Source of the DNA: Deltaproteobacteria bacterium
GTDB taxonomy: Bacteria; Myxococcota_A; Polyangia; JAAYKL01
Direction of reading: 5' to 3'
Assembly (NCBI GenBank): GCA_030621515.1
Contig: JAUXHN010000020.1
Span: forward strand, 1 to 36,246
Length of the DNA stretch: 36,246 bases
Shown: in pieces, positions 3,308 to 26,600 of the stretch
Position numbering within the stretch: position 1 is the stretch's first letter
Layout of the letters: every line of letters begins with the position of its first letter
Position numbers and translations under genes: made by a program
The notes under the pieces: model-generated
Told to the model about the DNA's origin: nothing
Database searches by the model: none
The model's input: the letters and a program-made list of their open reading frames with translations, nothing else

Positions 3308-3312
3308 TCAGA

Positions 3313-3828: not shown

Positions 3829-3843
3829 TCCCTTGCCTTTCGG

Positions 3844-8991: not shown

Positions 8992-11059
8992 AACCGGCGT
9001 CCCCGTAAAGCTGACACGGCGGCTCCTGACATCCGTTCGCGACTTTCTCAACACAGAATCGATAGGCCTGATCGGAACTCCAGTCCCAGGTTCCCTCATC
9101 TTCATGTCCTTCCGAAACGTATATGGTGTCCCGTATGGGTAAATAATACCAGAATGGGGTTCCAGTGTGACCCCTCCATGCATAGAAGCAATAGTCACTC
9201 GCTCCCAACCCGCCGAAATAACCGCTCAGTGCTGCATGGGAGCCGGTGTCCGCGATATCGCAGAGGTTGTCGAACCAGGGTGTGTCACCATCATAAACCT
9301 GCACGTACACATCGACCTCCCCCGGATCCAGATCGTAAACTATACGAACCATGCAGTCTTCGCTGGGACAGGGGTGTTGATATTTGAACCAATCCTGATC
9401 GTATTTATACGAGAGGTACGCCTCCTCCCAGGTTCCTGAGTTGCAGCAATCGGGGGCCCCTGCATCGGGGGCGGGATCACAGTCGTGAACTGGTACTTCC
9501 ACCGCCCAGGCCGCATGAATTGCGGCCTCCTCTTCGGTCTCAGGGCCCGGCGGTCCGGCGGCGAACGCCTCGTTGTGCTCTGTCGTGTCGGGATCCTTCC
9601 TGACCCGCACCCTGAACGTGTACTGATGACTCATCGAGTAGGAATCACCATGATAATCTGCCACTCCAATCAAGTATGGCGGTGTCCAGCTTGACAAGAG
9701 CGTCGAAAATTCAACGGTACCCCGGTTGGGATTGACTATTTCGGCCGACGGATCCCCCGGATCGGGGATTGTCTCCGGAGCGTACTCCGAATAGTAATCG
9801 ACCATGCAGTTCCCGCTGGTGAGGCAGGCGCCCCCCCCTGCGCATACTCCCTGGGAAAGACAGTTATTTCCAAACCATGCACAGCCCAGGTTGATTTGAC
9901 AGGTCCGAGGGATCTCCAGGCAGTCCTGATCATTGTCACACGTGTAGACAATTGAATCGCGACCGATCCTTGCGGACACCTGGAAATCGTCCGGCAGGGA
10001 CGTCTCGTTTTCGAACTGCACTTCGATATCCAGGATGCACCTTGAAAGAGCAGAAATGTCTAACGAGAACCAATCAATGTCTCCCGAAGAGGCTATGTAT
10101 CCTTGCACCTCCACCCAGGAACTCCAGGTTGTTGCACTACAGTTCAGCGAAGTCATTGGAGTCGCCTGGTTCGGATGATCGTTGGTCTCATTTGGATCCG
10201 GATCCGGAGTGATTGTCAATTCCAGGATGTAAGGAACCTCGAAATCGAATTCCATGTTGTTGTCATCCGACACAACAACGTAGTAGGCGCCTGCGGTTTC
10301 CACAGCCTGCATATAGTGGAGCGTGGTATCCTCAAACTGACCGGCCTCGTTGGAGCCGGACACCAGCAGATCGCTGTCCGCGTTGATCATCCTGTAAGCC
10401 GGCTCGATCCCTCCTGTCGGCATCGTCAGGTTGATACCGACAAGCTCATGGTCTTGCACGTCAATCCGGTACCAGTCCTCGTCTCCGCGATATGATACAT
10501 ATCCCTCAATAGAGCCGGCGCCCAGGTCCGTGGCATCCTCCATCGTGTTGTTGGGCTCGTTGACGTCGGGGTCTACGTGCCCCAAAATGGTCAGTTCGTA
10601 AGGATGATAGACATCCTCCGCATCGCTGGCCCTGTCCCTGACGACGACAAAATAGTCGCCGGACTGCATGCCATGGGTGATCTCGATTGGATTGTTGGGC
10701 TCCGCGGATTCGGTCGATTCAGGTGACACCACCACCTCATCACTGGTGGAAGACCATACATCGTAGGTCAGGTTAACCGCAGTAACCGGTGCGTCAATGG
10801 AGAGCGAAACCGATAACAAATCTATCCCATCGGGGATGGAAAAGCTGTACCAATCCTGATCTCCTATCGGACAGAGATACCCTTGCGCGGGACTTTCAAA
10901 ATCAAGAGACGACGCCTTGGCCTGAATATCGTCCTCGTCCCAGGGACACGCGGACTGCCCCGCGTCGATGCCGGAGTCACCCTTGCCGGCGCCGTCGGAT
11001 TTACATCCAATGATCGGCAGAGCAACACATATTGCCAGAACGATGCAGTTTTTTTTCAT
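8972..11059 (-). CDS. Large lipoprotein with pre-peptidase C-terminal (PPC)-type domains
   Basis: 695 residues. The lipobox is PIIGC (C19). At least three PPC-like beta-sandwich units are visible, each with a D-W-Y/F-S/R core: GDQDWYSFSIPDG, GDEDWYRIDVQDHELVGINL and SGDIDWFSLDIS, each closed by a G-x-Y-x-V-V-V-x-D strand (GDYFVVVRD, GAYYVVVSD). A central segment (about 385-435) is rich in Cys and resembles small disulphide repeats. A fourth unit near the end has QDWFKYQHPC and CMVRIVYDLDPGEVDVYVQV. PPC domains are usual on secreted proteins; no peptidase core is present, so this is a binding or structural protein. The start overlaps the upstream vWA gene (ATGA) and the stop overlaps the next gene by 20 bases. 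Confidence 0.87.
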   Translation of the reverse strand: MKKNCIVLAICVALPIIGCKSDGAGKGDSGIDAGQSACPWDEDDIQAKASSLDFESPAQGYLCPIGDQDWYSFSIPDGIDLLSVSLSIDAPVTAVNLTYDVWSSTSDEVVVSPESTESAEPNNPIEITHGMQSGDYFVVVRDRASDAEDVYHPYELTILGHVDPDVNEPNNTMEDATDLGAGSIEGYVSYRGDEDWYRIDVQDHELVGINLTMPTGGIEPAYRMINADSDLLVSGSNEAGQFEDTTLHYMQAVETAGAYYVVVSDDNNMEFDFEVPYILELTITPDPDPNETNDHPNQATPMTSLNCSATTWSSWVEVQGYIASSGDIDWFSLDISALSRCILDIEVQFENETSLPDDFQVSARIGRDSIVYTCDNDQDCLEIPRTCQINLGCAWFGNNCLSQGVCAGGGACLTSGNCMVDYYSEYAPETIPDPGDPSAEIVNPNRGTVEFSTLLSSWTPPYLIGVADYHGDSYSMSHQYTFRVRVRKDPDTTEHNEAFAAGPPGPETEEEAAIHAAWAVEVPVHDCDPAPDAGAPDCCNSGTWEEAYLSYKYDQDWFKYQHPCPSEDCMVRIVYDLDPGEVDVYVQVYDGDTPWFDNLCDIADTGSHAALSGYFGGLGASDYCFYAWRGHTGTPFWYYLPIRDTIYVSEGHEDEGTWDWSSDQAYRFCVEKVANGCQEPPCQLYGDAGCGSPSS

Positions 11060-12876
11060 TGTGCGTCACCAGGTGCGATGCAGTGAACCTCGGCGTCGAA
11101 TTCGGAAATGTTTACGAAATCACTGTCAGTGATCTCCACACGGCCGGAGGGTGGATTCTTGTAGTTGCCCTCGAACCGGAAGCTCGCCTCGACGCAGGCA
11201 ACCCTGAATCTGTCGTAACTCTCCAGATCGTCGAACGGGACCTCGCCGAGGAACACCAGGATACGATTGCTGCCGTGATATCCCTGGCCGGCCGGCCCCG
11301 AGACATTGTCATACTCATCGTTGCCAAGGATCTCCGTCAAGGAGATGTTGCTCACCTCGAAATCGTAGCACGTGCTACCGTCGATCATCGAAGATTCCCA
11401 CACCTTGTAAATGTATGCCAGATCGTGCCGACCGGTCTCGCTCTTGTGGTGAGGATCCGTACCGGTCTTCACCTCTTCGCCGTTGGAAACCGAGTCCCAG
11501 TCGTAATCGTCTTCCACGTCGTGCAAGTCCGGACTCGTTCCGGCGTTGAACTCCAGAAAATCGACCAGGCCGTCGCCGTCCGTGTCGGGCCCGCGGCGAT
11601 TGGTTCCCGTGTATCGCTCCTCGCAGTCGAACAGGCCGTCCCCGTCCGAATCGGTGTAGTTCTCCGGATCGCAGATCCCGTCGCCGTCTGCGTCGATGCA
11701 ATCGCAAAGACCGTCCCCGTCGTTGTCCTCGCAGCAGGAACCCTCCGGCTCGTCCCCACAATCGCACAGACCGTTATCGTTCTCATCGTAACAATAGTCC
11801 GGCAACAGGCATTCGCAGTCACCCGGATCAATCGGATCCATGCCGGAAGTACGGTACCTGTATTCGAGCCCGTCCCTGCACCCGTCTCCGTCGCTGTCAG
11901 GCGATGCAGGATCAGTACCGATAAGGAGCTCTACCCCGTCCTCGATACCGTCACCGTCAGAGTCCGGAAGCACCTTGTCGCCCTTCACGAGGGCGTTGAT
12001 GTTCTGCACCACCAGCGTCTTCAAGGTGAACACGCGCTCGAGGGCCGTCAGGTTTACGAACAGGAAGTTGAGATCTCCTCCCGAATCGAAGGCCCGGAAC
12101 ATACCGTCGCCTTCTTCGGCCATATCCTGCAGCAGGTCGGTAGCGGCATTGTCAACCTGTGGATTGCCCGAAGATATGAGCGCCGTGTTGACTGCAATCG
12201 TGCCGATATGAAAGATCTTGCCCAACTCCATGATCGCTTCAACGGACTCCATGATGTTCTCGGCGCTATTCTCCGCCGCTTCGTCTCCCTCCACATCGGG
12301 AATTCCGTCGGTGATCATGATCACCTGGTAGGTGGAAAGGGCGAGCGCCTCCTGATCCGAGTGCATCAGCTCGTGTCTGATCTCCGCATATGCCTCGGCG
12401 AGCGCGGCGATGTAATTTGTGGTGCGGTCCGTCTCTCCGAGCACCGGAATCTTGGTCAATATAAAATTCAGATCATCCGTAAAATAACTTTCGAACTGGC
12501 CATCATCGTTCATGACGGCGGTGAGCGGTTGCGATTCCGATGAGAACCGCACTACGGAAACCTTGACATCGGCTTCATCCGCAAAGAGGTTCTCGACGGT
12601 CTCACGAACCGCTCGCTCCCTGCCCGTTTCGCCCGAGGGATCCGGAGGATCGTTGACCTCCATGCTCTCAGAGCAATCGACCAGGAAGATCACCCGAAGC
12701 GGAAATTCGAGACTCTCGGTCGGCTGGGTGCAAACATTTCCTATCACCGTCAACTTGTTGTCCGGGATAGGCAATGGAGGATCCGGAAGTTTCTCGAGGG
12801 AAGCGTCCGTGCACGCAACCAGTCCTGTCGAAAAAACGACCAACAGGAAGAGGAAGAATAGTCCTCTTGTACCCAC
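11056..12876 (-). CDS. vWA-domain lipoprotein with intact MIDAS and Asp-rich Ca-binding repeats
   Basis: 606 residues. GTG start at 12876 with GGAGG 7-8 bases upstream, 2 bases after the previous stop. The lipobox is GLVAC (C22). The vWA domain (about 58-300) has a full metal-ion-dependent adhesion site: D67-C-S69-E-S71, T153 before NY, and D190 in ITDG. Asp-rich repeats (DSDGDGIEDGVE, DADGDGICD, DTDGDGLVDFLE; about 305-465) include a Cys-rich insert near 360-400. The C-terminal domain (about 495-600, with NRILVFLGE, SFRFEGNYKNPPSGRVEI) is shared with the neighbouring paralogues. vWA domains with intact MIDAS bind protein ligands through a metal; the lipid anchor places this at the outer membrane. 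CglB of Myxococcus is a vWA lipoprotein adhesin; similarity of role is inference. Confidence 0.92.
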   Translation of the reverse strand: MGTRGLFFLFLLVVFSTGLVACTDASLEKLPDPPLPIPDNKLTVIGNVCTQPTESLEFPLRVIFLVDCSESMEVNDPPDPSGETGRERAVRETVENLFADEADVKVSVVRFSSESQPLTAVMNDDGQFESYFTDDLNFILTKIPVLGETDRTTNYIAALAEAYAEIRHELMHSDQEALALSTYQVIMITDGIPDVEGDEAAENSAENIMESVEAIMELGKIFHIGTIAVNTALISSGNPQVDNAATDLLQDMAEEGDGMFRAFDSGGDLNFLFVNLTALERVFTLKTLVVQNINALVKGDKVLPDSDGDGIEDGVELLIGTDPASPDSDGDGCRDGLEYRYRTSGMDPIDPGDCECLLPDYCYDENDNGLCDCGDEPEGSCCEDNDGDGLCDCIDADGDGICDPENYTDSDGDGLFDCEERYTGTNRRGPDTDGDGLVDFLEFNAGTSPDLHDVEDDYDWDSVSNGEEVKTGTDPHHKSETGRHDLAYIYKVWESSMIDGSTCYDFEVSNISLTEILGNDEYDNVSGPAGQGYHGSNRILVFLGEVPFDDLESYDRFRVACVEASFRFEGNYKNPPSGRVEITDSDFVNISEFDAEVHCIAPGDAQ

Positions 12877-12878
12877 TG

Positions 12879-14669
12879 CTATTCCTCCACCGGAGCCGAT
12901 CCGGGATCCTCACCGGTCTGCAGACAATGTAGGTCCGGATCGAACTCGGCGGTCTCGACGAAGCGCAACGGTGAGAGTCCCCGTACCCAACCGCTGGGAG
13001 GATCTTTGAATGTATCGCCAAGATACCTGACATCGATACAACTGACCCAGAACCGACCGCGACTACCCGCCATATTCTCGGGCTCCTCCTCGGCGAAGAT
13101 CAGGATTCTGTTCATTCCCGACACATCGTCCTGTCCCGTTCCCCTCAGGCTGGGAACGAGCGTCACGTTCTGAATGGTAAAATCGTAACAACGGTTTTCC
13201 GTAACCTCATTGAAAACGCCCGCGATCACAGAGTAGTGGACCTGGTGAACGACCAGTTCTTCTTCGTCAAAAAGCAACGGGCTCGTTCCCATCGCAACCT
13301 CGTCCCCCGAGAGCTTGCCATCGAAATCGTGATCGATTTTCGTGTCATGCACGGTTGCGTCCATGCCGAGTCGCAGCTCGATTCCGTCCGGGATACGGTC
13401 ACCATCCGTGTCTGGAAGAAGCGGATCGCTGCCCAGAAAGATCTCTTCACATTCCCTCAAGCCATCCCCGTCTCGATCGAGATTCGCCGCGCAACCCATG
13501 GCGGGTATATCCGCGTCTTTCGGGTCGAACCCCTTGGACGCAAATTTAAATTCGAAAAGATCGCTGAAACCGTCGCCATCCGTGTCTGCCGAAAGCCGGT
13601 CGAGGCCCGCAATGAACTCCACGTCATCGGGCAGGCCGTCGCGATCCGAATCGACGGCAGCGCCCATTTCCGCGGGAATCGCGTTCATGTTCAACGCAAA
13701 GAACCCGGCCAGTCCGTAAGGCGCACGAAGCGACTCGAAATTGAAACTGAGGAAATCGAGATCGGTTGATATGTGAATGTCTCTGAACGTGCCGAGACCC
13801 TCCTCTGCCATGCCGATCAACAACGGCAAGGCCTCGGCCTTATCGTATCCAAACTGGGCGGCGGCATCGGGGCAGACCTGGTTGATCTCCTCCAGGGAAG
13901 TAAAAAGAAGGATCGTGCTCAGGGAGATATCGCCCACTCCGTAGAAATCCCCCAGAGACATGATGTCCGATACCTTCTGCATTATCTGCTCCGGCTGATT
14001 GTAGTCGGGGCACACCGAATTCATGTCCACATAAACGTCATCGGGAATATCTGCCAGCGTGTTGCATACACCGTAGAGGCTGTCGGGGGGGGTGTCGCCG
14101 TCGTCGCATCCGGCGTTGCACTTCGGTTCGGGACACCCGTCACTGAAAAAGAGCACCATGTATTTCGTTCTGGCCGTTTCTGCGGGACCGGAAGCGACCA
14201 TATCCTGCTCGAGCACCCTGAGAACCGTCGAGAGAGCGCCCTGGTAGTCGGTTGCCGGGCCGCCCTGCCCGCCCTCCGGCGCGAGTGCGTCGCGAGCAAT
14301 GCTCCAGTCGTGAGTGAATTCCGTTATGGCGCTCCAGGAGGCAAAACCCACAACCCCGAACTCCACATTTGGAAGAGGGTCTAGCTCGCTGCCCATGAGG
14401 TCGAGGGCTGCCAGGCGATTGTTACCCGGATCGGTGCACTGGAGCGAGGCGGACTGATCCATGACGATGAGCAGCTTGACGGGAAATATCACCTCGTCCG
14501 CCGGGCTGGTGCAGAACTCCCCTGTTATTGAAAGTTTGTCATCTATGTACTCCACCATGCTGTCGTCGATGGCCGCGAGCCCCGCATCGGTACAGGCGGC
14601 AATGACAATGGCCGCAAGTAATGAGGAAGAAAAGATCAGACATACAACAAATGCATTTCGTTTATACAT
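12879..14669 (-). CDS. vWA-domain lipoprotein with intact MIDAS, first gene of the lipoprotein operon
   Basis: 596 residues. The lipobox is VIAAC (C26), followed by TDAGL, like the TDASL of the next gene. The vWA domain (about 58-320) keeps the MIDAS: D71-Q-S73-A-S75, T140 before DY, D177 in FSDG. A Cys-rich loop follows (CPEPKCNAGC and CPDYNQ). Asp-rich repeats (DSDRDGLPDDVE, DTDGDGFSDLFE, DRDGDGLRECEE, DTDGDRIPDGIE) occupy about 335-450. The C-terminal domain (about 485-590, with NRILIFAEEEP and FKDPPSGWVRG) matches the other two vWA paralogues. It heads a run of seven co-directional lipoprotein genes, and its leader holds a TATAAT and a 13-bp tandem repeat. It is probably a metal-dependent surface adhesin or assembly subunit. 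Confidence 0.92.
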   Translation of the reverse strand: MYKRNAFVVCLIFSSSLLAAIVIAACTDAGLAAIDDSMVEYIDDKLSITGEFCTSPADEVIFPVKLLIVMDQSASLQCTDPGNNRLAALDLMGSELDPLPNVEFGVVGFASWSAITEFTHDWSIARDALAPEGGQGGPATDYQGALSTVLRVLEQDMVASGPAETARTKYMVLFFSDGCPEPKCNAGCDDGDTPPDSLYGVCNTLADIPDDVYVDMNSVCPDYNQPEQIMQKVSDIMSLGDFYGVGDISLSTILLFTSLEEINQVCPDAAAQFGYDKAEALPLLIGMAEEGLGTFRDIHISTDLDFLSFNFESLRAPYGLAGFFALNMNAIPAEMGAAVDSDRDGLPDDVEFIAGLDRLSADTDGDGFSDLFEFKFASKGFDPKDADIPAMGCAANLDRDGDGLRECEEIFLGSDPLLPDTDGDRIPDGIELRLGMDATVHDTKIDHDFDGKLSGDEVAMGTSPLLFDEEELVVHQVHYSVIAGVFNEVTENRCYDFTIQNVTLVPSLRGTGQDDVSGMNRILIFAEEEPENMAGSRGRFWVSCIDVRYLGDTFKDPPSGWVRGLSPLRFVETAEFDPDLHCLQTGEDPGSAPVEE

Positions 14670-14784: not shown

Positions 14785-16119
14785 CTAGCGCGATTCGCGC
14801 CGTGAAAGGACAATGGTCAGCCCGAGCAAGAGTGTAAGGAGCATTCCTCCACCAAGACCGCTATCCCCGCCGACCGGAGCCGTGGAACAAGCATATCCTC
14901 CTACAACGTCGCCCGCCGCCACAATGTACGAATAGGTCTCGGCCGAGACACCGGTCTGGCCGGTTACCTCGTCTTCCCATACCTGTTCGGAAACTACGCG
15001 CACCTTGTAAGTGCCGGGCTTGTCCGCCTTGAAGGTGACCAGCCTATCCTGAAGGTAATGATACTCGTACGGCGTCGAAACACTCGCCGCCCCCTTGGGA
15101 TTCTTGATCATGGCGCTGGATCCGGAAGGCGCTTCCACGATCTCCCAGTGATAATTGAGCGGCTGGTTCACCCGATTTGCGAAAAGCCGGAGCCTGATGG
15201 ATTCCCCGGTTTCTACCGTCAAATCGGGGCTATAAACGGTGTAGATATCCTCCGGGTCCAGGCAGTTCTCCACGTCATCCAGCACCACGTAGCAGTACAG
15301 GTCGTCACAGGCTTCCCCGATGCCGTCGCGATCCAGATCCTTTTGCTCCGGGTTCTCGATTGCAGGACAATTGTCTTGCAGGTTCATGATGCCGTCTCCG
15401 TCCATGTCCGAATCACAGACATTTCCAAGGAGATCTATGTCGATATCATCTTGATCGTAGTTGGCATCGTTGATGCAATTATCATAAGTGTCTCGGATTC
15501 CATCGCCATCGCTGTCATTATCGCAAGCATCGCCCCAGATGCCCGGGTCGTCGTCACTCTGATCCGGATTGTACACCAGCGGGCAATTGTCCTCGAGGTT
15601 CAGAACCCCATCCGCATCCATATCGTCGTCGCATGCATTCCCCAGACCGTCTCCATCGGTGTCGTACTGCAGGGGATCCGGGTTCATCGGGCACAAATCC
15701 TGACCGTTGTCGAAACCGTCGCCATCGATATCGCCGTCGCAAACATTGCCTATCCAATCCGCATCAATATCAAATTGGTCGATGTTGAACGTATTGGGAC
15801 AATTGTCGCATGCGTTCCCGTACTCGTCGCCATCGTCATCCGCCTGATTTGCGTTTTCGACAAACGGGCAATTGTCATACGGATCTTCTATCCCATCATC
15901 ATCATAGTCATCGGCATACTGATACGTGTCGCCAAGATCAGTATTGTTGATGAGGATGCTGCCCCCGCCACCGCCGCCGCCACCGCCTGACTGCTGTGGG
16001 GTTCCACACTCACCGAAATTGTCATCACACTCGTAGGGTGGCGGTTGAGCATCGACTATTCCCGCCCAAAGCAGAACCACGCCTACACATAGAATTGAAT
16101 GTAACTTAATGAGGTTCAT
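14785..16119 (-). CDS. Thrombospondin type 3 repeat protein with MYXO-CTERM-like anchor
   Basis: 444 residues from ATG 16119, preferred over the longer frame from 16176 because AAGGG lies 7 bases before it and it begins a normal signal peptide (MNLIKLHSILCVGVVLLWAG, cleavage VDA|QPP). A nine-Gly tract follows. About six Ca-binding TSP3 repeats (DDDGIEDPYDNCP, DIDGDGFDNGQDLCP, DADGVLNLEDNCP, DSDGDGIRDTYDNC, DMDGDGIMNLQDNCP, DRDGIGEACDD) fill about 70-275. An Ig/PKD-like domain follows (YHWEIVEAPSGSSA, TFKADKPGTYKVRVVSEQ). The C-terminus has GYACS, a hydrophobic helix and RRESR, the arrangement of MYXO-CTERM surface-sorting tails. It ends 115 bases before the lipoprotein operon on the same strand, so it may be an adhesin made with that set. 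Confidence 0.9.
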   Translation of the reverse strand: MNLIKLHSILCVGVVLLWAGIVDAQPPPYECDDNFGECGTPQQSGGGGGGGGGSILINNTDLGDTYQYADDYDDDGIEDPYDNCPFVENANQADDDGDEYGNACDNCPNTFNIDQFDIDADWIGNVCDGDIDGDGFDNGQDLCPMNPDPLQYDTDGDGLGNACDDDMDADGVLNLEDNCPLVYNPDQSDDDPGIWGDACDNDSDGDGIRDTYDNCINDANYDQDDIDIDLLGNVCDSDMDGDGIMNLQDNCPAIENPEQKDLDRDGIGEACDDLYCYVVLDDVENCLDPEDIYTVYSPDLTVETGESIRLRLFANRVNQPLNYHWEIVEAPSGSSAMIKNPKGAASVSTPYEYHYLQDRLVTFKADKPGTYKVRVVSEQVWEDEVTGQTGVSAETYSYIVAAGDVVGGYACSTAPVGGDSGLGGGMLLTLLLGLTIVLSRRESR

Positions 16120-16223
16120 GATTTTCCCTTTCTTGAAGACGACATTTTGATCGCATTGATGCTTAGCAATATTCATGCCCCAGAAAAAAATACCACACCA
16201 TCATGCTAAATATAAACAACATT

Positions 16224-16397
16224 TCAGGTTATCTCGACACCCGAAGAACACTCGCCCTGTCGGCATCTCATGTATGCTTTACCCATCAGTTTGGTGGGTG
16301 AACCCCACATCCCGATATATAGTTCATCATCCGCACAACAATTGAGCGTGAACCGGTAAACTGCTACATCTTCCCAGGTGTCACACCATCGAATCAT
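16224..16397 (-). other. 57-residue small frame, possible gene remnant
   Basis: In the otherwise unassigned 16120-16377 gap the minus strand holds a frame from ATG 16397 to a TGA at 16224. Its residues look protein-like: WCDTWEDVAVYRFTLNCCAD, then DELYIGMWGSP and AYMRCRQGECSSGVEIT, with six Cys in 57 residues. No ribosome site precedes the ATG, and upstream it becomes a shadow of the plus-strand phosphodiesterase gene, whose GTG lies inside it. It may be the tail of a secreted Cys-rich protein truncated by arrival of the 16378-22424 genes, or chance. The rest of the gap (16120-16223) is AT-rich with no clear signal. Confidence 0.25.
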
Positions 16398-17760
16398 AGA
16401 TCTCCTGTCAATCTTTGCAGCAGCTGCCCTTTGCGCGTGTTCCGGATCGGACTCTTCTGAAAGATCCGATCCAGAAAAAGTCGACAGCAAGCTCCTCCTG
16501 TTCGGCATAGACGGCGCCACGTGGGACCTGATGGATCCGCTCCTTGAAAAGGGGCTCCTACCCAACTTCGAAAAGCTGATCGACCACGGCGTGAGATCTC
16601 CCTTGAAAACCTACAAACCCACCCTCTCCCCGCTCATCTGGACCACCATCGCAACAGGGTTTGCGCCCAAAAAACACGGCATCGAGGGGTTCACCGCAAA
16701 GGTCCGGGGCACAGGCGAGACGGTGCTGGTCACGAGCAACATGCGCAAGGTCAAGGCCGTGTGGAACATCCTGTCCGAGCACGAGAAGACCGTCGGGGTG
16801 ATCGGCTGGTGGGCGTCGTACCCCGCTCAAAAGGTGAACGGCTTCGTCATCTCCGATCAGGCCGGCACGCTGCGCAAGGAGAACTATCGCATCGCGCTCG
16901 ATCTGAAACCTGCGCACGACGCCGGAATAGACCCCAAGACCACCTGGCCTCCCTCCCTGGCCACGGATCTGAAAGATCACCTGAGGCTGTCTTCCAAAAT
17001 CGATGTGGCGATCATCGATCGTTTTTTCGAGCTTGACGCAAAACAACGGGAAAAGCTCGCGCAAGACGGAACCGTGGACAAGGAAGACATCCTGTCCATC
17101 TTCAAATTTGCTTACCTCATCGACCGATCATTCATCGATTCCGGGCTGGTTGCCCTGGCAAAATACAAACCCGATTTCGGGGCGCTCTACCTCAACGGTC
17201 TCGACGCTGCGGAACATCATTTCTGGAAGTACTTCGAGCCGGGCAAATTCGAAAACGTCCGCGCGGAAGACATCGCCAGATACGAAAAGATCATTCACCG
17301 ATACTACATTTACATGGACGAAATCCTCGGGCGCTTGATGAAACTTTATCCTCTGAAGTCATCGACGATCATGGTGGTATCGGACCACGGCCACGAGGCG
17401 AACGCAAACTACGATCCGTCATCGTCCGACCATTACAACCGCATCTGTTCGGGGGGTCATGAGGAAGCCCCGGACGGGATCTTCATCCTGGGCGGCGTCC
17501 TCGCCGGCCGAGGCAAGATCCCCAGGCCCAACGTGTTCGATGTGACGCCGACGATTCTCGCGCTGATGGGAGCTCCCGTGGGTCAGGACATGCCCGGAGA
17601 GATCACTCTGGAGTCCATCGATCGGAAATTTCTGAGGTCCCATCCCCCGACGAAGGTCAAGACCCACGGGCCGAATCCGTTCTTCTCCGCGACGCCCGTT
17701 CCTTCCGCGATGAACGACGCGCTCAAGGAGAAACTCAGGGGGCTTGGCTATATCGAATGA
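16378..17760 (+). CDS. Alkaline phosphatase superfamily (type I phosphodiesterase-like) lipoprotein
   Basis: 460 residues. The only usable start in frame is GTG 16378, without a clear ribosome site. The N-terminus (FAAAALCAC, lipid Cys near 21) looks like a lipoprotein signal. The catalytic fold is the alkaline phosphatase superfamily, phosphodiesterase/nucleotide pyrophosphatase branch: LLLFGIDGATWD (metal D45), PTLSPLIWTTIATG with S84 at the usual nucleophile position, HGIEGF, LNGLDAAEHHFWKYF (metal D/H), VVSDHGHEA (metal D-H) and the late metal His in SGGHEEAPDG. The protein ends LRGLGYIE, nearly the same tail as the second superfamily member in this operon (LRALGYVE). It probably hydrolyses or transfers a phosphodiester-linked group on an envelope molecule; the substrate cannot be told. 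It is the first of four plus-strand genes. Confidence 0.88.
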   Translation: MSHHRIIDLLSIFAAAALCACSGSDSSERSDPEKVDSKLLLFGIDGATWDLMDPLLEKGLLPNFEKLIDHGVRSPLKTYKPTLSPLIWTTIATGFAPKKHGIEGFTAKVRGTGETVLVTSNMRKVKAVWNILSEHEKTVGVIGWWASYPAQKVNGFVISDQAGTLRKENYRIALDLKPAHDAGIDPKTTWPPSLATDLKDHLRLSSKIDVAIIDRFFELDAKQREKLAQDGTVDKEDILSIFKFAYLIDRSFIDSGLVALAKYKPDFGALYLNGLDAAEHHFWKYFEPGKFENVRAEDIARYEKIIHRYYIYMDEILGRLMKLYPLKSSTIMVVSDHGHEANANYDPSSSDHYNRICSGGHEEAPDGIFILGGVLAGRGKIPRPNVFDVTPTILALMGAPVGQDMPGEITLESIDRKFLRSHPPTKVKTHGPNPFFSATPVPSAMNDALKEKLRGLGYIE

Positions 17761-17779
17761 AGCTCATAGAATTACACTC

Positions 17780-18598
17780 ATGAACACCACCGCATGGAAA
17801 AAGATCGAGACTGCCCTCCTGGTGCTGCTGCTCGTAACCACCGCCGGGCTCGGCGTCTATCTTGTAACAACCGTCGATCAGATCAGGGACCGGCTCGGCC
17901 GGCTGGAAGACGAGGTTCTGGATCTGGCTCACCCTGACGGCGCCACGAGATCCGCCGCAACGAGAATGAAGAAGATGTCAGCCGACATGGCCGACCTCAC
18001 GGAGCGGATAAAGGCGCTGGACGACCGCATCGGCGCGATCCTCCTCAAGGCGCGCGCAAACTCCAAGCGCCTGGACAACCTGGAGGCGGGAGATCTGTCC
18101 GACCTGGGATTGGGCGCGCTTATCGACCGGAAGCTGAAAGGGGGCGCGCACGGAGCGGGCCCGTTGGGGCCTTCCACGGGCCACGACATAGATTCGATCG
18201 GCGACAAGATCCAGCTCACCGATCTGCAGCGTCGTCGCATCGCCAACTTGATGAACACGGCAAAAGAGGATGTCATGAGCGTGCTCACCGCAGCTCGACA
18301 GGAGGATCCCGAACTGGTCGAGTACATCGGAAAAGTCATGCGATCGGGAGAGGATATCAAGAGCATCGCCAACCAGCTTCTTCCCAAGCTCTTCAACAAC
18401 AACGTCCCGGGCACCGACGAGAGCTACTTCTCCACCCTCCTGGATATTCGCCAGAACGCCGCCGGCGACTTCAGGGACATCCTGTCGGCCGATCAGTTCG
18501 ACACTTTCGGCAAGCTGGGAATCGACATATTCGGCATCGGAACGGGCTACTCGCCGTTCAAGAAAGAAGGAGAAAAACTGGCGACGGAGAACCAGTGA
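17780..18598 (+). CDS. Inner-membrane-anchored coiled-coil protein, unknown function
   Basis: 272 residues with ATG 17780; the frame could open at TTG 17744 inside the previous gene, but the ATG gives a normal anchor. A single transmembrane helix (ETALLVLLLVTTAGLGVYLV, 10-29) is followed by a heptad-rich coiled coil (about 30-105: DQIRDRLGRLEDEVLDL, MADLTERIKALDDRI). A Gly-rich hinge and a helical C-terminal domain follow (about 140-250: LTDLQRRRIANLMNTAKEDV, ILSADQFDTFGKLG). The LTxxQ...LSxxQ spacing recalls periplasmic Spy/CpxP-like helical proteins, but I would not assign it there. Its TGA overlaps the next gene's GTG (GTGA). It may tether or organise the enzymes of this operon. Confidence 0.8.
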   Translation: MNTTAWKKIETALLVLLLVTTAGLGVYLVTTVDQIRDRLGRLEDEVLDLAHPDGATRSAATRMKKMSADMADLTERIKALDDRIGAILLKARANSKRLDNLEAGDLSDLGLGALIDRKLKGGAHGAGPLGPSTGHDIDSIGDKIQLTDLQRRRIANLMNTAKEDVMSVLTAARQEDPELVEYIGKVMRSGEDIKSIANQLLPKLFNNNVPGTDESYFSTLLDIRQNAAGDFRDILSADQFDTFGKLGIDIFGIGTGYSPFKKEGEKLATENQ

Positions 18599-21042
18599 CC
18601 CCCAGGCCCACCCCACCTCGAATAGGCATAGGCATCGCGCTGCTGAGCACCTGCCTCATCACCATCGAGCTGGCGCTGACCCGACTGTTTTCCGTGACCA
18701 TCTGGTACCACTTCGCCTTCCTCGCCATATCGGTGGCCCTCTTCGGCATCGGCGCCGCCGCCCTGACGGTGCACATGATCCAGCACCGCCTGGCCCCCGA
18801 GCGAACGAACTCTATCCTGGCAAGGGCATCCATCGCCCTTGCGCTGGTCACGATCATTTCCAACTGGGTGCTGCTCAACTTCACGCCCCACATGGCCACG
18901 GGCGCGCAGTTCGATTTCTTCTCGCGGGTCACTCTCAACCTGGTCATTACTTTCATCGCCGCGGCGGCCCCATTCTACGCAGGGGGGTTTGCCATCAGTC
19001 TGGCCATGACTCGACACTCCCGCGCGATACATTCGCTCTACTCATGGGATCTCTTCGGAGCGGGGCTGGGATGTCTCCTGGTGATCCCGGCCCTCGACCT
19101 CGCGGGCGCGCCCGTCACGCTGGTCCTCGTATCCTCCCTCGCAGCCCTGGCGGCGGCGGTTTTCTACGGTGAATCGGGAAGGAGTCGCGCCTGGACATGG
19201 GTGTCGGCGTCTCTCGCGGCGGCGATAGTCACCTTCGCCGTCATGTCCCCGGGCCTCGGGCTCTTCGAGTTGCGCACGGCAAAGGGCCTGAACATGGAGC
19301 GCCTGGAGATCGAGTTCAATCGCTGGAACTCCTTCTCCCTGGTGAGCGTCCTTCCCGGCGGGGGCTTCAAGGGCTGGGGGATGAGCCCGAAGTTCAAAGG
19401 AGAGCTTCCGGAACGCAAGACTCTCATCATCGACATGAACGCGATGACCCCACTCATAAACTTCGACGGCGATCTCGACGCCGCTTCTCACATGCTGCAC
19501 GATCTCTCCTCGTTCGTGCACCACGTCCATCCCTGGAAGGCGCCGGGGCATGTCTGCGTGATCGGCGCCGGGGGCGGTCGCGATGTGCTCGCGGCCCTGG
19601 TCAGCGGCGCGAATCACGTCACCGGCGTGGAGATCAACCCGCTCATCGTGGACGACGTCATGCTCGGGCAGTACAGGGAATATACCGGGAGGCTCTACGA
19701 ACGCCCGGACGTGACCATCATCACGGACGACGGCCGGGGAGTTGTCCGACGATCGAATGAGAAATTCGGCATCATTCACCTGAGCATGGTGGACACATCG
19801 GCGGCGACCGCGGCGGGCGCTTACTCTCTCACGGAAAACAGCCTGCACACCGTGGAGGCCTTCGCGGACTACCTGGAACACCTGGAGCCGGAAGGCCTCC
19901 TGTCGGTATCATCGGTCACCATGCCCGGGCTCGCGGGCGGCGCGGAGTTGAGCGCCCTGGCCTGGAAATCCCTGAAGGACACAGGAGCGGATCCATCCAC
20001 CAATGTCGCTGTCATCTCCACACCCTGGATAGGCCGCCCCGGCTGCATCCTTCACAATGTCATCGTCAAACCCGAGCCGCTCACCGGGCGGGAGATCTCC
20101 TCCATTCGGGAGAACACCCGTCGTCTGGGTTTTCAGGTCGCCTATCTGCCGGGGGAAAAGACACGCCCGGGAAAATGGATCGGCCCCATCCTTACAACCA
20201 CAAACGAGTCGGATCTCGCCGCGCTCATCGACGGCTGGAGTCTGGACGTGACACCGGCGACGGATGATCGGCCCTTCTTCTTCTACCAGAACAGGCTGTC
20301 CGATCTCAGCGCGATGCTGGCATCCGGTATGCCGACATACCTCTTCGGGAACGGCCTTTTCATCCTGGCCAAGGTGGCCCTTATCGCCCTCGCGATGGTC
20401 ATCCTCTTTTTGCTGATACCGATCATCGCAGCCAGAAAATCCGTCGAACGCGGCCGTGGGCGAGCCATGTGGGATCTGGGATACGTGGCCTGCCTGGGGG
20501 TCGGGTTCATGTGTGTGGAGATCGCGCTCATCCAGAAGTTCACACTCTACCTGGGGCGACCCACCTATACACTGGTGGTCGTCCTCTTCGTGCTGCTGAT
20601 GGGGAGCGGCCTCGGCAGCCGACTCTTCGGCCGATTGTCGCAAGGCGGCTCGATCCGCAACAGGCTCGTCATCGCCATCGGCACACTTCTGGCTGCGCTG
20701 TTCGCCCTGTGGGTTTTCGGTCTCGGAGATCTCCTGCTCGCTTCCACGTCGGGATGGCCGACCGGCGGCCGTATCGCACTCACCGTCGCCGTCCTCGCCC
20801 CTATCGGGTTGCTCCTCGGGATGCCCTACCCCGCGGGTCTCTCCGCGGTCGCACGGCGCGCCGAAACGAGGATCCCCTGGCTGTGGGGGATCAACAGCGC
20901 GACGTCCGTCCTGGGGTCGGTGCTGGCTGTGCTGATCTCCATGCACGCGGGCATCCCGTCCACGCTTCTCGTGGGCACCTTGCTTTACTGTGTCGCGCTC
21001 CTCGTTTCCATCAAGGTGACCGGGAAGGAGAACCCCGGATGA
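18595..21042 (+). CDS. Multi-pass membrane protein with spermidine-synthase-like domain
   Basis: 815 residues, GTG start overlapping the previous stop. About six hydrophobic helices (10-220) include the typical YSWDLFGAGLGCLLVIPALD segment. A soluble Rossmann domain of the spermidine synthase/methyltransferase type follows (about 320-460): CVIGAGGGRDVL for nucleotide/SAM binding, GVEINPLI for the ribose-binding acid, ITDDGRG, and SLTENSLHTVEAFADYLEHL after the active-site strand. A second membrane part (about 580-810) has several helices, including LGYVACLGVGFMCVEIALIQ and MPYPAGLSAVARR. Such fusions are common but uncharacterised; the catalytic stretch here is HLSMVDTSAATAAGAYSLTE, without the canonical D-x-x-D-P of true aminopropyltransferases. 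A role in modifying an envelope molecule with its AP-superfamily neighbours is inference. Confidence 0.87.
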   Translation: MTPRPTPPRIGIGIALLSTCLITIELALTRLFSVTIWYHFAFLAISVALFGIGAAALTVHMIQHRLAPERTNSILARASIALALVTIISNWVLLNFTPHMATGAQFDFFSRVTLNLVITFIAAAAPFYAGGFAISLAMTRHSRAIHSLYSWDLFGAGLGCLLVIPALDLAGAPVTLVLVSSLAALAAAVFYGESGRSRAWTWVSASLAAAIVTFAVMSPGLGLFELRTAKGLNMERLEIEFNRWNSFSLVSVLPGGGFKGWGMSPKFKGELPERKTLIIDMNAMTPLINFDGDLDAASHMLHDLSSFVHHVHPWKAPGHVCVIGAGGGRDVLAALVSGANHVTGVEINPLIVDDVMLGQYREYTGRLYERPDVTIITDDGRGVVRRSNEKFGIIHLSMVDTSAATAAGAYSLTENSLHTVEAFADYLEHLEPEGLLSVSSVTMPGLAGGAELSALAWKSLKDTGADPSTNVAVISTPWIGRPGCILHNVIVKPEPLTGREISSIRENTRRLGFQVAYLPGEKTRPGKWIGPILTTTNESDLAALIDGWSLDVTPATDDRPFFFYQNRLSDLSAMLASGMPTYLFGNGLFILAKVALIALAMVILFLLIPIIAARKSVERGRGRAMWDLGYVACLGVGFMCVEIALIQKFTLYLGRPTYTLVVVLFVLLMGSGLGSRLFGRLSQGGSIRNRLVIAIGTLLAALFALWVFGLGDLLLASTSGWPTGGRIALTVAVLAPIGLLLGMPYPAGLSAVARRAETRIPWLWGINSATSVLGSVLAVLISMHAGIPSTLLVGTLLYCVALLVSIKVTGKENPG

Positions 21043-22424
21043 TCTTCGAAAAGAAGCCATTTCGGGTATTCGTATTTATCGTCCTGCTCGGGCTGGTCGC
21101 CGCGGGGATAGCGTACAAGCTGACCGACGATCCCGATCCGACACAGCCCGATGTGATTTTCATAGTCATGGACATGGTTCGCTCGGATCGCCTGTCCATG
21201 TGCGGCCACAACCGCCCCACGTCACCGGTGCTCGATGCTCTCGCCGAAAAACCGGGCGTCCAGGCAACGTGCAACGCCTACTCGCCCGGCACATGGACCC
21301 TTCCGAGCCACGCCAGCTACTTCACCGGCGAGGAGGTGCCGGTCCACGGCGCGGACTGCATTCTCAAACCCGACGGAGTCGATTCGGTCTCCCTGTGGGG
21401 CGATCCGGTTCGCCCCCTGACCGGGAACATTCCAACTCTTGCGCAGAGGATGCGCGAGCGGGGATACAGGACCGTGATGGTATCCGGCAACCCGATAGTC
21501 TCGAGGTGGGCGGCCACCGGCCTGGATCGCGGTTTCCAGGTGCTTCGCGAATCCAGACAGTTCGGAGATCTCTACGGAGACGACCTCGTGGCCGCGCTGA
21601 AGAGCGCTCTCGGGGAAGTAACAGAGGATGCCCCCCTCTTCCTGTTCATCAACATCGCCGACGTTCACCATCCCTGGCTGCCCGTCCCGAAGGACCTCGG
21701 GTGGGTGCCACCGCGCCCATTCCTGGATAATCGACCCAGGATTCCCGACAACCCCTACCCGCGATTTTTCAGGGACGAGATGACCGATGAGGAGAGGATG
21801 AGCTTCCTGGCCCACGCAAACGATTCGTACGATTACGCCGTATGGAGAGCGGACAATACCCTGAGCCGGGTGCTCGAGATACTCGAAAAGCGCGGCACGA
21901 CAAGGAGGCCGCATCGCCTGATCGTCACCAGCGATCACGGCGAATTTCTCGGCGAGCACGATCTCCTCTCTCACGGGATCTTCGTGTACGAGCCAGACAC
22001 CCGCGTGCCGCTGGTGTTCGCATCTTCCTCTCCCTCCTCTTCATTCGAAACCTCCAGACCCATGGCCGCGCTCGCGTCTTACGATCTCGCCCTCGATGGA
22101 GCGCTCTGGAACATCCCCCGCTCCGTACGCGCCGCGGGATATCCGGACGGTCTCCTGAGCAAACTGTTCGGCGACAGGCTCACGGCCACGACCGCCGCCC
22201 ACTGGAACGGCGATGAGAAACTGTTCTACATCAACGGAAAGTATTCCCTCTTCAATCTGAGAACAGACCCGGGCGAACTCGACCCACACCCCATGCCGGA
22301 CAATCACCCCCTCAGGAAACGCTTCGAGGGCTTCGTCAGACAGATCCTGGAGACCTCCCGTCGAAAGACCGAGCCGTCACGAGAAATGATCGAAGCGCTG
22401 CGCGCGTTGGGTTACGTGGAATAA
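21039..22424 (+). CDS. Sulfatase-fold (alkaline phosphatase superfamily) membrane-anchored enzyme
   Basis: 461 residues; ATG 21039 overlaps the previous stop (ATGA). An N-terminal anchor helix (VFVFIVLLGLVAAGIAY, 10-26) is followed by the sulfatase fold: DVIFIVMDMVRSDRLSMCGH (metal Asp), SPGTWTLPSHASYFTG, INIADVHHPW, VTSDHGEFLGEHDLLSHG (metal D-H and basic/His residues) and a C-terminal YINGKYSLFNLRTDPGELD. In true sulfatases the Cys or Ser of C/S-x-P-S-R becomes formylglycine; here the motif is T-L-P-S-H, so formylglycine cannot form and a Thr nucleophile, as in phosphotransferases of this superfamily, is more likely. It ends LRALGYVE. Its stop abuts the stop of the convergent lipoprotein gene with no base between. 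Confidence 0.88.
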   Translation: MIFEKKPFRVFVFIVLLGLVAAGIAYKLTDDPDPTQPDVIFIVMDMVRSDRLSMCGHNRPTSPVLDALAEKPGVQATCNAYSPGTWTLPSHASYFTGEEVPVHGADCILKPDGVDSVSLWGDPVRPLTGNIPTLAQRMRERGYRTVMVSGNPIVSRWAATGLDRGFQVLRESRQFGDLYGDDLVAALKSALGEVTEDAPLFLFINIADVHHPWLPVPKDLGWVPPRPFLDNRPRIPDNPYPRFFRDEMTDEERMSFLAHANDSYDYAVWRADNTLSRVLEILEKRGTTRRPHRLIVTSDHGEFLGEHDLLSHGIFVYEPDTRVPLVFASSSPSSSFETSRPMAALASYDLALDGALWNIPRSVRAAGYPDGLLSKLFGDRLTATTAAHWNGDEKLFYINGKYSLFNLRTDPGELDPHPMPDNHPLRKRFEGFVRQILETSRRKTEPSREMIEALRALGYVE

Positions 22425-23513
22425 TCATTCACAATAGACAACTCCCTCGGTCCCCACCGCGAACACTTCGCCGGTCTGCGCCACCCATACATCATTGAGC
22501 GGAAAATCGAACGGGCCGGTCACTTTGGACCAGGAAGAACCATCGTAGTGGAGAACCACGCCCTCGGTTCCCTCACCGCCCACGGCAAAGATGTCCGACG
22601 AAGATCGCCCCCCGATTCCGGTCAGGACGACATTTGCACCATCAGGGCCGAGATAGACCTCGCTCCACCCGCCGGCATCCTTGTGGAACATGGACGCGTC
22701 GGACCCCATGATCGCGCCGCCCACCGCGTGGATATCCATGGAAGAGCTGCCCCATATCGCTTCCAGGGAGGAGAACATCACCAGCGTCGCCGCCTCGGAA
22801 GACCAGCTCGATCCGTTGTAGTGGAGGATGCCACCACTCCCCACCACATAGACATTACTGCCCGAGGTGCCCCACACATCGGTCAGAAGAGCGGGTGTTC
22901 CCGGGATCCCCGTCATCTCCGTCCACCCCGCACCATCGTAGTGCGCGACCATCGGCGACAGAAGGCCCCCCACTGCGAAAACGTCGTCGCTCGACGCGCC
23001 CCACACCCCTCTCAGGAAATCTGCGATGCCGATGACGGTTGGGGACCAGCTCAACCCGTCGTAGCGGAGGACGAGGTCGGGCTCGCCGACGACGAACACA
23101 TCCGTGGCGCCGGTTCCCCATACTCCGCGAAGCCCCACCGCACCGATCCCCGGATCCAGCGCACCCCATGAGCCGTTGTGGTAGTGGATCACCGTGGTCA
23201 CCACCAGAGTGTCGCCGCCCACCACGAACACATCGTTCGCGGATGCCCCCCACACGGACGAGAGAGAAGCCGAGGTGTACACATCCCACACGCAGGGGAA
23301 ATCCGTGTCGGAGTCAGTATCGACATCTGTATCCGTGTCCACATCGGTGTCGATGTCCGTATCCGTATCGGCATCCGTGTCCGTATCGGTATCCGTGTCC
23401 GTATCTGTATCCGTGTTGCCCATCCGTCCCAGGGGCACCACCCTGTCGCAGCCCAATGCGCAACAGGAGGCAACCAAAACGGCGCAGACAGCTGCATGGA
23501 TTGCTCGTGTCAT
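22425..23513 (-). CDS. Lipoprotein with Asp-Thr tether and seven-repeat propeller
   Basis: 362 residues with ATG 23513; the longer frame from 23774 has no plausible N-terminus and crosses the divergent promoter region. The signal peptide (MTRAIHAAVCAVLVASCCAL) ends with the lipid Cys at C22. A 38-residue tether of alternating Asp and Thr/Ser/Val/Ile (DTDTDTDADTDTDIDTDV...) follows. Then seven repeats of about 40 residues match L-x-x-V-W-G-x-S-x-x-D-V-F-A-V-G followed by H-Y-D/N-G-x-x-W (SVWGASANDVFVVGG, GVWGASSDDVFAVGG, DVWGTSGSNVYVVGS, IWGSSSMDIHAVGG). Seven blades fit a complete propeller. No ribosome site is visible and a promoter sits just upstream, so the mRNA may be leaderless. Surface binding protein of unknown ligand. 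Confidence 0.85.
   Translation of the reverse strand: MTRAIHAAVCAVLVASCCALGCDRVVPLGRMGNTDTDTDTDTDTDTDADTDTDIDTDVDTDTDVDTDSDTDFPCVWDVYTSASLSSVWGASANDVFVVGGDTLVVTTVIHYHNGSWGALDPGIGAVGLRGVWGTGATDVFVVGEPDLVLRYDGLSWSPTVIGIADFLRGVWGASSDDVFAVGGLLSPMVAHYDGAGWTEMTGIPGTPALLTDVWGTSGSNVYVVGSGGILHYNGSSWSSEAATLVMFSSLEAIWGSSSMDIHAVGGAIMGSDASMFHKDAGGWSEVYLGPDGANVVLTGIGGRSSSDIFAVGGEGTEGVVLHYDGSSWSKVTGPFDFPLNDVWVAQTGEVFAVGTEGVVYCE
23301..23414 (-). repeat. Asp-Thr hexanucleotide tract in the propeller lipoprotein
   Basis: 114 bases of period 6 (GAY ACN on the minus strand) encode 38 residues alternating Asp with Thr, plus a few Ala, Ile, Val and Ser. The tract lies directly between the lipid-attachment region and the propeller. 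The interruptions and mixed synonymous codons show that it is not a fresh pure microsatellite. Confidence 0.85.
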
Positions 23514-23519
23514 GAAAAT

Positions 23520-23548
23520 ATTGTATCGACTCGAGCAGTTACCCACAA
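23520..23548 (-). promoter_or_regulatory. Candidate promoter for a leaderless lipoprotein mRNA
   Basis: On the minus strand TTGTGG (23548-23543) and TACAAT (23525-23520) are 17 bases apart, a good -10 with a partial -35. The expected RNA start, about seven bases past the -10, falls on or next to the ATG at 23513. That agrees with the missing ribosome site. Confidence 0.4.
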
Positions 23549-23615
23549 TAATAACTAGCCTCGCAGCTGCCTTTAGTGACGCGCGACGATATTTACTTGA
23601 TTGGCCCATCGCACT

Positions 23616-23654
23616 AAAAAAAAAACTTTCGAAACAAGTTTTTCGATGTACAAT
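23616..23654 (+). promoter_or_regulatory. Candidate promoter and palindrome before the 1581-residue lipoprotein
   Basis: A run of ten A (23616-23625) resembles an upstream (UP-type) element. TACAAT at 23649-23654 is a likely -10, with only a weak TTTCGA at 23627-23632 in the -35 place, 16 bases before it. An inverted repeat TCGAAA-6-TTTCGA (23629-23646) fills the space between the two boxes and could be an operator. RNA would begin near 23661, about 38 bases before the ATG at 23699. Confidence 0.4.
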
Positions 23655-23698
23655 CTTATTGGACAATTTCAACCCAGTCAAAGCAGATGGAGACAGAT

Positions 23699-26600
23699 AT
23701 GAACAACAAAATAATGCAACTATTGGTAATAATGGTTTCATGTTTTCTACTGGCCCAATGTTCCGACAACCCATCTGACCCGGACTTTGATTCCGGAACC
23801 GGCGACACCGACACGGATACCGATACGGATACCGATACGGACACGGATACCGATACCGACACGGACACCGATACGGACACGGATACCGATACCGATACCG
23901 ATACGGACACCGATACCGACACGGACACCGATACCGATACCGATACCGACACGGATGCAGATGCCGGGCCTGATTCCGGCGATGACGGGGGAACGGACAT
24001 CGATACCGATACCGACACAGATACCGACACGGATACCGACACGGACACCGATACCGACACGGACACCGATACCGACACGGATACCGATACCGACACGGAC
24101 ACCGATACCGACACCGATACCGACACGGATACCGACACCGATGTAGATGCCGGACCCGACGGCGGCGGGGACGCAGGACCGATCGATCTCTGCCCGGGCG
24201 ATCCTCTCAAGACAGATCCCGGTGTCTGTGGTTGCGGTGTCCCGGATGTGGATCTCGATCTCGACAGCACAATGGACTGCCTGGATACCTGCATCGATCT
24301 GGACGGTGACGGCTACGGTTTGCCCGGGGGCGCGGGAGACACCTGTCTCGGCGCGGACTGTGATGACGATCCGTCCGCGTGCGGCGCGGGTTGCTATCCC
24401 GGTAACCTGGCCCCGGATATCTGCGACACATACAACCAGGATTGTGACGCCTTTGTAGACGAGGACCCGGACCTTACGTGGTATGCGGACGCGGACGGCG
24501 ACACATACGGCGATCCCGCCGTCACCCTCAACGCATGCACCGCTCCGGGCAGTTATGTCGCGGACAACACCGACTGCGACGACGACACATCCGCATGCGG
24601 CGCGGGTTGCTATCCCGGTAACCCGGCCCCGGACATCTGCGATACATACAACCAGGACTGCGATTCCCTGGTTGACGAGGACCCGGACATCACCTGGTAC
24701 GCCGACACGGATGGTGACGGCTTCGGAGATTTCACGGTCACGTCCAACGCATGTTCAGCTCCGGTCGGTTACGTCGCGGACGGCACCGACTGCGACGACG
24801 ACACATCCGCGTGCGGCGCGGGTTGTTATCCCGGCAACCTGGCCCCGGATATCTGCGACACGTTCGACCAGGATTGCGATGGCTTTATTGACGAGGACCC
24901 GGACATCACCTGGTACGCCGACACGGATGGTGACGGCTTCGGCGATCCCACGGTCACCGTAATCGCGTGCATCGCTCCGGGCGGTTATGTCGCGGACAAT
25001 ACCGACTGCGACGACGACACATCCGCGTGCGGCGCGGGTTGCTATCCCGGCAACCTGGCCCCGGATATCTGCGACACGTTCGACCAGGATTGCGATGGCT
25101 TTGTTGACGAGGACCCGGACATCACCTGGTACGCCGACACGGATGGTGACGGCTACGGCGATTTCACGGTCACGACCAACTCATGCTCAGCTCCGGTCGG
25201 TTACGTCGCGGACGGCACCGACTGCGACGACGACACATCCGCATGCGGCGCGGGTTGCTATCCCGGCAACCTGGCTCCGGATATCTGCGACACGTTCGAC
25301 CAGGATTGCGATGGCTTTGTTGACGAGGATCCTGACATAATGTGGTACGAGGACTCCGACGGTGACGGTTACGGTAATTTCATGGTCACGACCATCGCGT
25401 GCACCGCTCCGGTCGGTTATGTCGCAGACGACACGGACTGCAACGACTCATACGACGGCTGCTGGCAACTCGGAGTCGAAACCGCAACATGCGATCCCAA
25501 CTGCACCTCCGTCATCTGTGGCGACACGTACGTCAACGCCACCGCCGGAGAAGCTTGCGACGACGGAACCAATGACGGTTCCTACGGTACATGTATGCCC
25601 GGCTGCGGGTCTCTTGCCCCCTATTGTGGGGACGGAGCCACCGAGCCCGGTGAGGAAGACTGCGACGATTCCGGCGAGTCCGTCACCTGCGACTCGGACT
25701 GCACCTTCGCCGTTTGTCCGGATGGCACTCTCAATACAACCGCCGGGGAGATCTGCGACGAGGGCGGCGACACCGCAACCTGTGACGGAGACTGCACCGC
25801 GGTCCTGTGCGGCGATACGTATGTTAACGGCGCCGCCGGAGAGATATGCGACGACGGTACCAATGACGGTTCCTATGGCACCTGCATGCCCGGCTGCGGC
25901 TCTCTGGCCCCCCATTGCGGAGATGGAATCACCGATCCTCCGGATGAGGAGTGCGACGGAGATCCTGATTGCAATACCGATTGCACATGGGACTTCTACT
26001 GTTCCTCCGTCAGCCCGGGAACCCTCTCGAGCACGACGGACTGCGATCTCACGGCTCTGGGTAACGGTTTCGATACGGACATGACGGTCACTCTCATTGG
26101 ACTACCTCCACTCAACCCGTTGGTCGACAATGCCGTGCTCAACCCCTACTGGCTCACGAACACGGGCTCCGTCTCGCTGGTGGCGGCGTCCCTGGGGTTG
26201 AACGACGGCACCTACCAGGTCGTGCTCGACAACGTGGCCGACGCCGAGACGGCTCTTTGCGCCGATACGGTCGATCTGGTGAGCACACCCGGAATCACGG
26301 TAACCGACGTCGAACCCGACATCGCGTGGACGGGGACGGGCACGGATAGCATCATCTCCGACATGATCGTGGAAGTCATCGGGACCGGGTTCACGGAGGT
26401 TCCCATGGTCACATGGATCAACGAGAGCAACCCGAGCATTCGCTTCGACGCGCCGTATGTAATCTGGAACAACTCCACTTCCCTCACGGCCCTGTGTCCG
26501 ACGGAGAGCGAGAGCATGCCTCCGGGTATGTACAACGTGGAGGTCGTGAACCCGTTGCCCCTGGACGTGGGCGCCTTCTGGATAGATGTCGCGGTTCTCG

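Follow-up and report, generated by a model that had tools for sequence, protein, structure and literature searches.

Four genes on the forward strand (P0001-P0002-P0003-P0004, positions 16378-22424) form a conserved operon that we read as an extracytoplasmic unit that tailors or recycles, in the periplasm, an envelope (glyco)lipid linked to a prenyl or polyprenyl group, the best of the readings considered, with a probability of roughly 0.42. The window, that is, the whole 36,246-nucleotide stretch of DNA analysed here, is one entire contig of a 4.6-Mb draft genome (G000). Every part of the operon is a member of a known family or similar to one, and comparison with related genomes shows that the operon does not stand alone but belongs to a lipid-linked gene neighbourhood that recurs in the Myxococcota, with named partner genes.

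The Operon, Its Surroundings, and Its History

A gap of 19 bp lies between P0001 and P0002, and the overlaps of stop and start codons (GTGA and ATGA) that a preliminary description had used to tie the genes together are present at both later junctions (Table 1). The best start of P0002 is ATG 17780, which is conserved in the sister species G002; TTG 17744 is unlikely. The 651-amino-acid ORF given for P0004 is too long; translation of the enzyme begins at ATG 21039. Compared with two sister species, all four proteins show 88-92% identity and dN/dS values of 0.15-0.24; they are under purifying selection and are therefore not chance ORFs.

The same description placed the block between surface genes of the opposite strand, and both flanking genes do lie on the reverse strand. 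A literature search of incomplete coverage returned no relevant paper on MtsC or MtsD by name. Downstream of P0004, the order of the genes encoding Thr-Asp (TDTD) repeats is also kept in G002; one of these predicted surface proteins has 1585 residues.

Table 1. Positions of the operon, neighbouring genes, and related features (window coordinates unless a locus is named)
Feature	Positions	Strand	Description
ExbB-ExbD-ExbD proton-channel set	2828-4515	-	FHA-domain protein nearby; MtsC/MtsD-like genes further along
Two MtsD-like genes	11056-14669		VWA-containing; follow the MtsC homologue; score below MtsD cut-off
MtsC homologue	14785-16176	-	Upstream flank; MYXO-CTERM cell-cell cohesion protein, TSP3 repeats; 511 bits versus cut-off of 350
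P0001	16378-17760	+	460 aa; AP-superfamily phosphodiesterase-type hydrolase, lipoprotein signal, LGYIE tail
P0002	17780-18598	+	Single-TM periplasmic coiled-coil protein, weak LTXXQ match
P0003	18595-21042	+	815 aa; 14-TM protein with SpeE-like domain
P0002/P0003 overlap	18595-18598	+	GTGA, read from the sequence
Stretch absent from G002	18645-21079	+	Deletion of ~2435 bp; P0003 start joined to P0004 TM anchor
P0004	21039-22424	+	461 aa; TM-anchored AP/sulfatase-fold hydrolase or transferase, LGYVE tail
P0003/P0004 overlap	21039-21042	+	ATGA, read from the sequence
Downstream flanking gene	22425-23774	-	Predicted surface protein, long TDTD repeats
TDTD-repeat gene(s)	23687-28444	+	Predicted surface protein(s), long TDTD repeats
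GTC family	L128:5976-7970, with homologues in L060, L178-L196, L201-L206, L234		Often with linked UbiA gene
Arylsulfotransferase-like gene (PF05935)	L129:5526-6893	-	In G050, directly upstream of P0002 homologue and GTC gene

G002 carries P0001, P0002, and P0004, all intact, without P0003. At the deletion junction the first codons of P0003 are joined to the TM segment of P0004, which is still anchored and in frame, and the three remaining genes are under constraint (dN/dS 0.17-0.20 for P0004). Directly upstream of them, and divergent, G002 encodes a 664-residue multi-TM member of a family that we call GTC. The GTC and UbiA genes of the window's genome are on contigs other than the window's; its GTC, on contig C241, has the same far-side neighbours as in G002, so that operon and GTC were probably separated in this genome. 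Barring assembly error, a small possibility in these draft MAGs, the simplest reading is that GTC / P0001-P0002-P0003-P0004 once stood together as one ancestral block, which was later broken up in the lineage of the window and lost P0003 in G002. The ancestral gene order is kept across the genus. The four genes may thus be called one operon, as first proposed, but not an obligate set, since G002 does without P0003.

Linkage to GTC and to Genes of Prenyl Lipids

GTC is a family of membrane proteins of about 660 residues found in many Myxococcota; Pfam covers hardly any of their sequence, and they have an invariant C-terminal pair of cysteines (C628, C633). The term "GT-C-like" rests on weak matches in 4 of 23 members (best E 3.3e-5) to PF10131, which we take to be a member of the GT-C clan; no relative was found among PDB sequences.

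The preliminary description had called for a neighbourhood survey of the 815-residue family. The clade of P0003 is present in 15 of 241 genomes of the class, all 15 of which bear GTC, itself present in 57 of the 241 (Fisher 8e-11, or 1e-9 without the genus, kinship being ignored). Orthologues of P0001 (5/241 genomes of the class) and relatives of P0002 (only 5/144 relatives) are likewise restricted to GTC-bearing genomes, and the P0002 relative adjoins GTC in G050 and lies near it in G006 and G002. In a phylogenetic tree of the sampled sequences the P0003 clade contains only Myxococcota, and several distinct clades of the P0003 family adjoin GTC. P0001 and P0003 recur as an overlapping pair in G017 (locus L034), a genome from a different family of the class, at 45% and 42% identity. 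All seven Polyangiaceae-type MAG loci retrieved with enough flank (L201-L206, L234) have a P0003 homologue, 43-50% identical to P0003, within about 5 kb of GTC; the contig of an eighth locus, L200, breaks off there.

Several of these loci also bring in genes of prenyl metabolism. The order in L201 and L205 is SPE3 (the P0003 homologue), UbiA, GTC, and a geranylgeranyl-reductase-family enzyme; mevalonate genes lie beside the P0003 homologue and GTC in L203 and L234, and with SPE3 and a GTC fragment in L206. The linked UbiA genes are assigned to that family by PF01040 (66.2 and 59.1 bits, cut-off 34.2), and score 23-50 bits against the NCBIfam models of DGGGP synthase, the cut-offs of which are 296-353. 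Among 39 relatives, UbiA follows GTC in distribution, being present in 12 of 15 GTC genomes versus none of 24 others (p 1e-7, kinship ignored). Taken together, the UbiA, reductase, and mevalonate partners suggest a lipid that carries a prenyl link; the reductase and mevalonate genes come from loci of other lineages only and do not adjoin this operon. AP-superfamily enzymes with LGY tails (see below) lie near GTC in G011, G026, G034, G042, and G003, and given the size of this superfamily in G000, some proximity is expected by chance. The GTC/UbiA/P0003 neighbourhood is not described in the papers searched, which covered the literature incompletely.

The main rival treats P0003 as a dispensable passenger, a polyamine or SAM enzyme carried along in a loose, genus-level set of envelope hydrolases (P0001, P0002, P0004) that would scavenge or remodel phospho- or sulfo-esters. 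This is what the deletion in G002 allows, the other three genes there being intact and constrained; the roughly 34 AP-type genes in the same genome favour it as well, as do the P0003-family members in other phyla, most of which have no AP neighbours. More distant P0003 homologues from other phyla had no GTC in the fetched flank. Against the lipid reading, in G006, source of the nearest homologues outside the genus (54-56% identity), neither GTC nor AP genes lie beside them. The renewed pairing of P0001 with P0003 in G017 speaks against the passenger explanation, as does the restriction of P0001, P0002, and the P0003 clade to GTC-bearing genomes; we regard it as possible, if doubtful. Tailoring of a prenyl-linked lipid remains our preferred reading. 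The original idea of an envelope operon acting on a surface polymer or lipid thus gains from the genus-wide gene order, the G017 pair, and the GTC and prenyl genes; the docking of tails discussed below is not supported.

P0003, the Hydrolases, and the LGY Tail

The AF2 model of P0003 (28 sequences; pLDDT 89, pTM 0.91) consists of 6+1 helices, a mixed SpeE-like domain at about residues 240-560, and 1+6 helices, 14 TM helices in all. Foldseek ranks the SpeE aminopropyltransferases 1uir/3anx first (E 2e-8 to 1e-7), the best match having a probability of 1.0, an E value of 2e-8, and a target TM-score of 0.58, which assigns the domain to the aminopropyltransferase fold. P0003 itself has no Pfam match, PF01564 included; some of its relatives match PF01564 weakly or clearly. 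The glycine motif G324-G326-G328 and the acidic E346 of the nucleoside site are retained. The catalytic Asp pair of SpeE lies in the motif D-[ST]-x-D-P, in place of which P0003 has D400-T-S-A-A-T, keeping the first Asp and losing the second. An ordinary SpeE was rejected on this loss and on the family model TIGR00417, against which P0003 scores 13.4 bits, far below the cut-off of 249.55. A literature search of incomplete coverage found no relevant paper on membrane proteins of this kind.

Topology was assigned from the model helices and the K+R charge per loop residue over 5, 17, or 28 sequences. Loops assigned to the inside carry 0.196 K+R per residue versus 0.087 outside (28 sequences; the smaller sets are similar), and from this positive-inside pattern the outer face is the predicted location of the SpeE-like domain, which is bounded by TM7 and TM8. 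Residues 142-191 form a single long helix in the AF2 model; with about 45 hydrophobic residues, it was read as two passes, and if it were a single pass the predicted side of the domain would flip. A SpeE-type domain on the outside is not described in the papers searched, a partial coverage of the literature, and would have no obvious supply of SAM, which counts against the outer-face model. P0003 might instead face the cytoplasm as a spermidine-synthase-like membrane enzyme, exporting a polyamine-type product through its own transporter-like helices for modification of a surface polymer. SpeE-type enzymes as nearest solved folds, together with the preserved glycine motif and E346, would suit such an enzyme; the charge pattern, the DTSAAT sequence, and the failure of SpeE-specific models make it quite unlikely.

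That the operon contains two AP-superfamily enzymes was correctly recognized: P0001 matches PF01663 (E 3e-34; 119.6 bits, cut-off 23) and P0004 matches PF00884 (E 5.5e-18; 65.7 bits, cut-off 25). P0001 has a lipoprotein signal, LCAC with Ser at +2, read by eye, and its metal-ligand-type residues (D276, H280, D336, H337, H361) are invariant in nine relatives. P0004 has one N-terminal TM helix and a Thr at the nucleophile position (Thr87); T87, D299, H300, and H312 are conserved in alignment A5. The motif T87-L-P-S-H, of which 90% or more of A5 share the Thr and the Pro, replaces the sulfatase C/S-x-P-x-R. A formylglycine (type I) sulfatase is ruled out because the nucleophile position holds this Thr and no Cys or Ser. 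G000 has a large set of AP-superfamily genes (about 34 with PF00884 or PF01663 in 4.6 Mb), many with TM segments or LGY tails. P0002, which consists of one TM helix and a coiled coil, scores 21.1 bits against PF07813 (LTXXQ/CpxP-Spy), below the cut-off of 24.3.

Both hydrolases end, as first noticed, in L-R-x-L-G-Y-x-E (KLRGLGYIE in P0001, ALRALGYVE in P0004). Defined as [LIVMA]xx[LIVMAS]GY within the last 25 residues, the tail occurs in 51 of 79 AP-superfamily proteins versus 20 of 1205 others, in a sample that is not random, its loci having been chosen for their relationship to P0001 and P0004. Where homologues of P0002, P0003, or GTC lie nearby, 13 of 14 AP genes carry it, as do 38 of 65 with no partner gene in the fetched flank. 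G000 has it on 14 of 33 AP genes checked, or 15 of 34 once P0004 is added, and only P0001 and P0004 of these belong to the operon. The tail is also seen outside this group (L210 and L260). In a search of solved sulfatases, five alignments all end before the tail columns; among the best stretches listed, only 7obi (a designed repeat protein) and, in part, 7snj/7sno, 7lha, and 9s03 reach them.

The tail had been proposed as a private docking signal, by which both hydrolases would bind P0002 in a processing complex; the shared ending, the invariance of L454, G458, and Y459 of P0004 among 22 relatives (23-92% identity), and a short tail helix (448-456) with pLDDT of about 50 or below in an AF2 model built on only 22 sequences, as for a flexible motif, would fit, and yet this is very improbable given the unpartnered AP enzymes that carry the tail, the 13 others in G000, the 9 of 16 tailed P0001-type enzymes that begin straight at the catalytic core without an export signal, and the rarity of P0002. 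Such a spread of the tail over AP-superfamily proteins that lack the partner is what the preliminary description itself had named as refuting its proposal. Judged by sequence distribution, the LGY tail is common among these AP-superfamily enzymes in general. In the choline sulfatase of Sinorhizobium meliloti a C-terminal tail is responsible for oligomerisation and also gives the active site its shape (PMC5870055). The wide occurrence of the LGY tail and this analogy favour a role that is probably intrinsic, in assembly or active-site shaping, over docking to P0002. A misleading lead is thereby removed, and the tail deserves study in its own right.

Proposed Pathway and Comparison with Known Systems

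From the signals of P0001, P0002, and P0004 and the charge pattern of P0003, all four proteins are predicted to act outside the cytoplasm. The operon, its conservation, the gene linkage, the folds, and the Thr at the nucleophile position of P0004 are direct results of the analysis; for the preferred reading, tailoring of a prenyl-linked lipid, we infer membrane side, substrate, donor, and order of steps as follows. Sugar transfer by GTC would take place at the outer face of the inner membrane, with a prenyl-phosphate related to the UbiA-type product as donor or acceptor. P0003, its domain on the outer face and its MFS-like helices supplying the donor, would modify the lipid or its head group with a SAM-type substituent (aminopropyl, aminocarboxypropyl, or methyl). 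P0001, an outer-membrane-type lipoprotein, and P0004, anchored in the inner membrane, might act on phosphoester groups by cleavage or transfer, such as release of a prenyl-phosphate carrier or relocation of a phosphate-linked substituent, and P0002 may serve as a periplasmic helical chaperone or spacer. Against this scheme, G002 does without P0003. The membrane side of the SAM-type domain in P0003 offers a simple experimental prediction. A bolder proposal, which we think rather unlikely, makes P0003 the first member of a new class of membrane enzymes in which an outer-face aminopropyltransferase-fold domain, fed a SAM-type donor through an MFS-like half-channel pair, decorates a prenyl-linked glycolipid that is the product of a hitherto undescribed GTC/UbiA system present in many Myxococcota.

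Known systems resemble the operon part by part. The soluble domain of P0003 shares with SpeE (1uir, 3anx) its fold, the glycine-rich nucleoside motif, and the acidic E346, but P0003 differs in its 14 TM helices, incomplete Asp pair, predicted extracytoplasmic domain, and scores short of the SpeE models. Where P0003 homologues and GTC have UbiA-type and geranylgeranyl-reductase-family genes as neighbours, these recall the archaeal-type lipid genes described in bacteria (PMC7852524), in a paper whose main text names neither Myxococcota nor Deltaproteobacteria; in contrast to those genes, the linked UbiA falls below the family cut-offs of DGGGP synthase. P0001 is like the type I phosphodiesterase / nucleotide pyrophosphatase (NPP) family of PF01663 in domain score and metal-ligand-type residues, and unlike the family at large in being a lipoprotein with an LGY tail. 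Choline sulfatase and P0004 are both AP-fold enzymes with a conserved C-terminal tail, although the tail sequence is different and P0004 is not a sulfatase by its nucleophile. With the EptA/MCR phosphoethanolamine transferases, P0004 shares the PF00884 fold, the Thr at the nucleophile position, a periplasmic catalytic domain on a TM anchor, and weak local similarity to the MCR/EptA models; it has one TM helix rather than a multi-helix membrane domain and does not reach the family cut-offs, and a hydrolase and an EptA/MCR-type transferase are equally possible.
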